Made by a program: the position numbers and the translations under genes. A stretch of 20,655 bases of DNA from Saccoglossus kowalevskii. Taxonomy: Eukaryota > Hemichordata > Enteropneusta > Harrimaniidae. The stretch covers positions 36,940-57,594 of the forward strand of contig NW_003115965.1 in NCBI RefSeq assembly GCF_000003605.2, written 5' to 3'. Each line of letters starts with the position of its first letter. Within the stretch, counting starts at the first letter, position 1. Positions 14,277-17,200 of this stretch are shown here, piece after piece. The notes under the pieces are model-generated. The model had not been told where the DNA came from and made no database searches. It saw only the letters and a program-made list of their open reading frames with translations.

Positions 14277-17200
14277 GTAGGAAGCGTTTTGTTGTTTTTA
14301 AACTGATTTTTGAGTTTGGATCATTTTTTTATTCCAGAAATGTGTGATAGGCGATCATTTTCGATTCATAAAAATGTTTGGGAACGACATCGGCATATTT
14401 CGATGCTGTGTGATCACATGACGCACTATGCATCGAGTCTTTGACAATGGTGCAATGTTTGTCTATATCGTAGCTATTATTTATGGCTCAGAAAACATAT
14501 TTTGCACTTCGTGGCTTTCATAATTCAGTGTTTTTATCCCAATGTTTTGACTTTTCAGGTTTTCGGCCATTTTGGTTCCATGGGCGCCGCCATGTTAACA
14601 TGGCGGTCAAACATGGCGGCCAAATTTGTCAATTTTTGACCAAAAAATGCCATAAAAGTGGTTTATTTTGTCGACAATCTCTAGTCGGGACATTCTAAAA
14701 TAATTTGCGGTACCATATGCCAATTATCATGTGTGATATGTGCGTGTTTGGGCGGATGAAAAGAACTGGAATTTTTCGTCCTTTTAAAACAAGATGGCGA
14801 TTCAACATGGCGCCGACAAGTCCTTGTTCTTTTGAAAATGAGTTAATAATGCGTTTTATGACTTTGCAGTAAGACCACCGGACAGTGCGATTGTTTTTTT
14901 ATTGATGTTATTGTTCGTAGTATCCATATCGAGGTGTATAAAAATCTGATTAAATTTATTTCGCCAAGTTTGGACCGTGAAAACCTATCTGACTGTCAAT
15001 TTAAGTATGATCAATAACAAAAAAGCGTTAATGGCCGTATGTTAGTCTTTAGAATAGCCATTCACAAAATGACTATAACTGACTTGTTTCCTTGGAGAAT
15101 ATTTGGATTATTTGCTATTGTTTTTTTTAGTATTTGTTTTTGTTCTATTATTTTCAATTGATAGTCTATTTACTATTATGCTTTCAAAGTTAGTTTGTTC
15201 TGTAAGCTAACCTGCATGTGTACACTGTAGGAAATAGTGTTAATAAACTTATACCTGTATTGCGATTGAAAATAAGTGAAGTGTGTTGTAATAAAAATAG
15301 TGCATCACTCGTATGTCATACATGTATTAAAAATATACACTGATGCTTTACTGTGTTCTGTTATTCTGCAAATTTACACAAGTGAAAACAATTACTTAGA
15401 TTACTCAATCCCATTGAAAATAATTTGTTGTAGTTTCTGCAGATACTTTTGTGGGAGATATGGCTGTTATTTACTTTTCACGAGTCTGTAGGTGTTGAAA
15501 TTAAATTAAATTAAAGTTTCCTGTTCCTTAGACATATAATAGTACCTATTCCAATTGATGTGTACTGTTCCTATCAACATAAATTACAACTTGATCTTTG
15601 AAATGAAATTGTCTTTCTTGCCTCATCATCATTTCTTAAGTCTTAAAAACTTTGAAAGCAATTTTCTGGACTACCCTATTTAGACAGTTAGTAAAAAACT
15701 TTCTTTCTCACCTGTCCACAGAGAAAGGCAATTTGTATGTTTACCTGTCCCAGCTGAAATCTGCCTGCATGTGTCTGGTGGACATTCTTGAATTTGTATC
15801 TCTGGTCTGTATGACACGATTTATTTGACACTGCTTCAACCACTCACATCACCCAGTTTGTATCTGAAAATCTGGTCTTTATAAAAATTAATCCATTCAT
15901 AGGTTTTTTAATTTCATACTAACCTGGAAAGCACAGTAGAAATTACATTTTGCAAGTTGCATAATTATTCATTAAAAAAATTGGCAATGATTCCAAATTA
16001 AAACTTAGCGGAACAATATACTGAAAACTAATTTTATTACTTTTAATATTATTTTTTTTTACAGAAGAGAAAAAACAACTAACAGATGATAGTGACTTGA
16101 TAGCAGAACCAGAAACACAGACTGTTATCTTACAGCAAGCACAGCCAATAATTCAAATTCAACAACCTACACAACAAATACTTTCTCAGTCCAGTCACAT
16201 ACCAGATTATTCAGAATATATGACTGGTAAGAAGCTGCCACCAGGTGGTCTGCCGGGAGTTGATCTTAGTGATCCTAGACAGCTAGCTGAGTTTGCTAAG
16301 ACAGCGTGAGTAATCCTTCATATCTTTGCATCTGGCAAAGTTGTACTGTCTCTGAAATGTATTAGCAAGCGCTCAACAACTTGATACAACCTAGACAGAG
16401 ATATGTGCCCAAAACAGATGGATTGCTCCCCTTACTTCAGTTGTGTTTAGTTTGTCCCTTCTATCCTCATTTTCCTATAAAGTACTGAGTATTTTCTAAA
16501 GTACTGAGAATGAAAGGAAATATATTTTTTTCTGTTAATGATGTCTTGTACTGTTTCATTCTGAAGTTTGTTCTCTTTTCAATGTGTAGCCCCCAAGTCC
16601 CAGAATTTATGCTTGGAAAATCAACACCTAATATTCCAACTTCGTAAGTATCCTCAGTGATTTTGTGCTAAAAGTGCACCCTGGTCATAATAACAATAAT
16701 CTGCTTTATTTTAATGTAGAAAATGTTCTTAATCTTTATTGTAACATTTCACTCTCAGAGCACTTGAATATCTGTTTTTGGCATTGTTTTTGAGACAGTA
16801 CAACTTCAGAGCAAAATCTTCTTGCTACTTTGGAAATGAATTCTTGATCTATAAATTCAAGATTATAGTGTTGCTTTGCTCATATTGTAGTTGCTAATAT
16901 ACTTATTTTTTGTATCATAGCTTGAACTTCTTTATTTCATTATTCATCATCTATTTTGAAATTGGTGGATTTTGGTAACCTCAGATTTCTGTGATTGGTT
17001 CACAGATTTGGTGCAGTGATGTAGATTTGTTTTCAAGTAAGGGGAAAAATGGAAATGTAGGTGGTCCCAACAAAACTGAAAAAGCAAAAAAAAAAACTAG
17101 TAGGTGGTTGTTTTGACCCGCAACTTACTGGCTCTTCTCTACATCAATGGGAGTGACCTTCACACTGTATGCTACTTCTCTAACCACACCACTCCTACAC

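Follow-up and report, generated by a model that had tools for sequence, protein, structure and literature searches.

Clustered YY1 motifs and a head-to-head palindrome in the first intron of the acorn worm YY1 gene: a probable hemichordate form of the YY1 autoregulatory element

A stretch of 20,655 nucleotides of the Saccoglossus kowalevskii genome (contig NW_003115965.1, positions 36,940 to 57,594), in the following called the window, was analysed. It is flanked by N stretches, at least 10 kb before and 6281 N after the window. On its forward strand four exons with a continuous reading frame and GT-AG at their borders were assigned to a YY1 gene:

13829..14276, plus strand: YY1 exon 1, 149 full codons, start codon at 13829
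14277..16064, plus strand: YY1 intron 1, 1788 bp, GT-AG, phase 1
16065..16305, plus strand: YY1 exon 2
16590..16643, plus strand: YY1 exon 3, 54 nt, in frame, skippable
18607..18667, plus strand: YY1 exon 4, last residues ...RTIACPHK

The name YY1, already given to the gene in the initial annotation, was borne out by the C-terminal peptide of exon 1, which resembles human YY1 in PDB entry 4c5i (E 9e-10). The same peptide also matches three fly PHO chains in the PDB; we take it to be the Polycomb-recruiting REPO segment. Furthermore, we take exons 2 and 4 to resemble YY1 and the residues RTIACPHK to mark the point just before the YY1 zinc fingers. Since a Pfam search assigned neither exon 1 nor exon 2 to a family, the identification is based on the PDB match and on this presumed resemblance; judged by its sequence, the gene is YY1. 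For exon 1 one match was found in the host assembly (572 Mb), and no relatives were found in viral, bacterial and archaeal contig collections, as expected for such collections. Zinc-finger exons were not found by short motifs in the loci L002 and L003, about 5.4 kb at the contig end being left out. The DNA-binding domain of the acorn worm YY1 is unread because of the 6281 N directly 3' of the window. Exon 3, which presumably has no counterpart in human YY1, may be alternatively spliced. The rank of the first intron rests on taking the sequence with the start codon at 13829 as exon 1; a non-coding exon could lie further upstream.

Several repeats were observed elsewhere in the window. The segments 4004-4274 and 4659-4824 partially duplicate a portion of a mitochondrial carrier frame (Mito_carr) and lie just upstream of that frame, with identities of 88-93% within families D1 and D2. 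An inverted repeat of 46 nt, whose arms are 87% complementary and separated by 44 nt, lies at 6665-6800 within a 108-codon stop-to-stop frame. Upstream of YY1, two inverted arms of 42 nt (11102-11143 and 12259-12300, 86% complementary) are found at a distance of 1.1 kb and may represent a foldback or MITE-like element.

Six exact matches to AANATGGC were located between 14566 and 14811, all inside YY1 intron 1:

14566..14573, minus strand: predicted YY1 site 1, CCAAAATGGCCG
14587..14606, no strand: 20-bp perfect palindrome, sites 2 and 3 abutting with zero gap
14589..14596, minus strand: predicted YY1 site 2, left half of the palindrome, AACATGGCGG
14597..14604, plus strand: predicted YY1 site 3, right half of the palindrome, AACATGGCGG
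14610..14617, plus strand: predicted YY1 site 4, AAACATGGCGGCC
14791..14798, plus strand: predicted YY1 site 5, ACAAGATGGCGA
14804..14811, plus strand: predicted YY1 site 6, AACATGGCGCC

Both the six matches within 250 bp of the intron and the head-to-head pair forming a perfect palindrome, as described initially, were thus recovered. The first site is placed 290 bp downstream of exon 1, and the cluster spans 246 bp, with four sites within 52 bp and the other two 174 bp further on. The polarity of the sites is --++++.

The density of the cluster was examined regarding chance, a comparison with shuffled introns which had been proposed beforehand and which was carried out here for this species. 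When intron 1 was shuffled 2000 times, 0.33 sites were obtained on average, with a largest total of 4 and at most 2 per 250 bp, against the six observed. The 250-bp region itself gave no more than 2 sites in 5000 shuffles, and the whole window at most 3 sites per 250 bp in 300 shuffles. To offset the post hoc choice of the motif, all motifs of the form XXNXXXXX in the window were counted. Among those matched in G+C (n=3830) only AANATGGC attains six per 250 bp. Among all motifs present (n=11753) six reach this number or more, namely AANATGGC and five others, four of which are homopolymer-like and one, ATNTTTGA, is not. In the whole window AANATGGC occurs 19 times, with 3.57 expected.

From 12 of the 19 loci L006-L024 the outer 1350 bases of both flanks were taken, and together with 13.7 kb downstream of the window they made up a background sample of 46,119 bases; L008-L011 (overlapping L007) and L014, L016 and L017 (the YY1 gene) were left out. 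This sample, whose loci had been chosen for carrying YY1 motifs, contained 20 AANATGGC matches, two of them with G, and a maximum of 4 per 250 bp. Poisson values for the cluster were 2e-9 and 1e-12 with the background and 8e-9 in another computation. These values are too optimistic, since the sites clump; hence the shuffles and the motif ranking carry the weight.

Eleven AANATGGC sites are located neither in the promoter nor in intron 1. A dispersed repeat accounts for six of them (58, 3881, 7129, 18820, 19123 and 19244), the remaining five are found at 448, 576, 5413, 5888 and 11083. Each of the repeat-copy sites scores at least 75 against at least one other (null maximum 62), with single pairs down to 30. 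The copies of the repeat (58, 3868-3960, 7129-7353, 18790-18855 and 19123-19318) have the layout ATTCAAAATGGC...GGCCATTTTG, followed by a TGTTCCAGAACC block. The extended motif ATGGCG is present in 7 of the 8 sites of the YY1 gene, but in 1 of the window's other 11 (Fisher P 0.001); for the six intron sites alone the ratio is 5/6 (P 0.005). If G or T is accepted at that position, as in the published consensus, the contrast is weaker (7/8 gene sites, 4/11 in the rest of the window).

The eight sites of the gene include two in the promoter region, which were absent from the initial annotation:

13802..13809, minus strand: predicted YY1 site in the promoter or 5'UTR, CAAAATGGCGCC
13826..13833, plus strand: predicted YY1 site with the start codon inside, TISU-like, ACAAGATGGCGAC

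They form a second head-to-head pair (13801-13834), the right arm of which carries the start codon. Intron site 5 together with its flank is identical to the start-codon site over 15 bp. CAAGATGGCGAC agrees with the TISU consensus SAASATGGCGGC at 11 of 12 positions, and in both TISU and the acorn worm YY1 gene the start codon is embedded in AAGATGGCG. According to the available text of the 2008 report, TISU is an element near the transcription start that binds YY1, and the genes concerned have a very short 5'UTR with a median of 12 nt (PMC2518114).

Pattern searches were extended to the 572-Mb assembly, where the best candidates were scored, so that the counts are lower bounds. One place was found for the 20-bp palindrome. 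The 300-bp cluster gave one match at E <= 0.001, very common words being skipped. CpG-extended head-to-head YY1 pairs of the form CGCCATNTT-N(0-30)-AANATGGCG were detected at no fewer than 15 places (reversed control 0). Two of the 15 listed are in the YY1 gene, the promoter pair at 13801-13834 and the intron palindrome. For 15 randomly scattered places, two in one named 3-kb locus correspond to P 3e-9, a value which disregards a possible promoter bias of the pairs. ATGGCG-type sites within 300 bp were counted for 10 of the 15 places, 8 elsewhere and 2 in YY1; more than two (namely five) were seen at the palindrome alone. The presence of at least 15 pairs and 0 of the reversed pattern suggests that this genome may favour the head-to-head pair as such. 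A three-site pattern, one reverse site plus two forward ones separated by gaps of up to 30, gave at least 57 matches on at least 20 contigs (reversed control 0). The list of this pattern contains 19 places other than YY1, and by eye 15 of them are five tandem arrays and sets of 7 and 3 similar sequences. Among the places listed, the YY1 gene is the only one shared by the three-site and the head-to-head pattern. Tandem arrays of opposed GCCATNTT/AANATGGC were observed at G000:C2561:507401-507970 and G000:C4184:156473-156844.

Clustered YY1 sites are known from mammalian imprinting control regions (Peg3, Gnas), where they form homotypic arrays near the promoter or first intron; these arrays lie outside the YY1 gene and are tied to imprinting in mammals. 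A cluster in YY1 itself, which the initial annotation had mentioned for vertebrates as controlling the level of its own gene, is confirmed by the accessible text of Kim, Yu and Kim (2009). They aligned YY1 intron 1 of 11 species, among them sea urchin, sea squirt and amphioxus, and described three to five GCCATnTT sites in about 100 bp at the beginning of the intron (PMC2743690). Three sites are given for sea squirt and four for amphioxus, and such a region is stated to be lacking in intron 1 of Drosophila pho. The first two sites are alike in polarity, the remainder are opposite and the outer two opposed, while the spacers are conserved neither in length nor in sequence (PMC2743690). YY1 was bound at the cluster in mouse brain by ChIP, and the zebrafish promoter was inactive in every site mutant. 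With more YY1 in Neuro2A cells the intact reporter went down (0.5-fold decrease), and the mutant was unchanged. The mouse locus and the zebrafish promoter served to demonstrate activation and negative feedback through such sites in mouse cells; the occupancy model is a proposal of these authors (PMC2743690).

Compared with this element as far as it is described there, the acorn worm cluster also consists of several YY1 consensus matches in the first intron, near the intron start. Its polarity --++++ fits the published rule, for which relative orientation only is given; by chance this pattern is expected in about 2 of 64 cases. The density of four sites in 52 bp and six in 246 bp falls within or above the three to five sites described, but the spread of 246 bp is wider than the published 100 bp or so. 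The acorn worm differs furthermore in the abutting of sites 2 and 3 as a perfect palindrome and in the extra head-to-head pair at the promoter and start codon. Site 1 lacks the G/T after ATGGC of the published 9-base consensus. An imperfect third site, GCCATAnT, is reported for 'all the vertebrates except urochordates' (PMC2743690), whereas the third site of the acorn worm is a perfect AACATGGC; as the paper limits the feature to that group, GCCATAnT does not define the wider one. There is no hemichordate in the species list of Kim et al., and no hemichordate YY1 cluster in print was found in the open-access library searched. The available text on sea urchin YY1 mentions neither introns nor autoregulation (PMC5966398).

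With a probability of about 0.78 the cluster can be regarded as a hemichordate version of the autoregulatory element known from YY1 intron 1. We infer that the acorn worm protein binds here and controls its own gene in this manner. The zinc fingers of sea urchin YY1, which comes from the sister phylum, are identical to those of vertebrate YY1, and the sea urchin protein binds the consensus (PMC5966398), thus the hemichordate protein very likely binds it as well. In its own gene, YY1 protein would occupy both the pair at the promoter and the six sites of intron 1. The cluster would activate transcription as long as occupancy is low; with abundant YY1 it would be filled and repress, and the protein would be held near a set level.

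A function without feedback on the YY1 level, in which YY1 binds the cluster mainly as a plain enhancer, an alternative promoter or a Polycomb-recruiting element, is considered unlikely. In its favour are the 15 bp shared by site 5 and the start-codon site, the CpG observed/expected ratio of the cluster (about 1.1-1.2) and the match of exon 1 to YY1 and PHO chains in what is presumably the REPO segment. Kim et al., in the text available, likewise allow for an epigenetic target or a promoter of unknown transcripts; in the sole tested system, however, the sites both drive the promoter and feed back (PMC2743690). Much more improbable is a derivation of the cluster, as a copy or a relic, from some dispersed repeat or MITE that contains ATGGC motifs by chance, the palindrome then being its terminal inverted repeat. 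The dispersed repeat of the window does carry ATGGC/GCCAT motifs and holds 6 of the 11 other sites, and the three-site pattern is spread over at least 20 contigs, mostly in tandem arrays or sets of similar sequence. However, further copies of the cluster and the palindrome were not found in the assembly searches given above, and the cluster scores no more than 37 against the repeat copies, where random pairs have a median of 26 and a 99th percentile of 44.

An intronic RNA or DNA hairpin acting in splicing or RNA processing, the palindrome not being protein sites, is equally hard to credit. The RNA fold of 14556-14645 is indeed stable (-35 kcal/mol, z -3.66, equalled by 0 of 200 shuffles), and as DNA z is -2.82 (2 of 200 shuffles). 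But opposed copies of one motif form a hairpin automatically, which explains the fold; the window is without any Rfam family at gathering score, and sites 5 and 6 as well as the promoter sites lie beyond the folded stretch. A different question is the origin of the cluster. The initial annotation had offered an old circuit or repeated convergence. The YY1 gene and the reality of the cluster are supported here, and of the two origins common descent within the deuterostomes seems the simpler reading of the sequence, since the host is a hemichordate and the polarity of the sites is shared. An independent origin in hemichordates under the same selection, which would be compatible with autoregulation, is retained as a minor possibility. 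It would agree with the unconserved spacers of the published species, but intron rank and relative polarity are the same as in the published clusters, which occur in an echinoderm and in chordates and so flank the hemichordates (PMC2743690).

The type of element is already known, including in the invertebrate deuterostomes amphioxus, sea squirt and sea urchin; new are the phylum Hemichordata, the palindrome, the pair of sites at the promoter and the rarity across the genome. Read as the autoregulatory element, the cluster, with its matching polarity in a hemichordate, supports the view that such self-regulation extends throughout the deuterostomes. It would also indicate that a cis-regulatory arrangement can be followed by the order of its sites though the spacers fail to align. 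Counting head-to-head pairs genome-wide, with two of the 15 listed places in YY1, could serve as a simple sequence test for dating the circuit in any animal phylum. Rather speculatively, the two matched head-to-head pairs, 0.77 kb apart, might act as a joint dose sensor, with a site grammar that would go back to the last common ancestor of deuterostomes. At normal levels YY1 dimers would then link the promoter with the intron; at high levels YY1 would fill the abutting palindrome and block elongation.

The mitochondrial contig of the same assembly was also inspected, and its genetic code and gene order point to a Saccoglossus-like acorn worm as the host. COX1 (PF00115 match) is on the opposite strand to most other genes. 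The genes besides COX1 were named by presumed resemblance, and on this basis ND2 precedes ND1. For S. kowalevskii an inverted COX1 and a transposed ND1 or ND2 are described in the available texts (PMC2697986, PMC3121625). There, ATA=Ile is common to echinoderms and hemichordates, and AAA codes for Asn in echinoderms and for Lys in Saccoglossus. In the aligned range of COX1 nine ATA codons were seen by eye to stand opposite Ile (5), Val (2), Leu (1) and Met (1), a tenth being outside. The anticodon of tRNA-Lys is TTT, and the ND1 frame contains eight AAA and no AAG codons.
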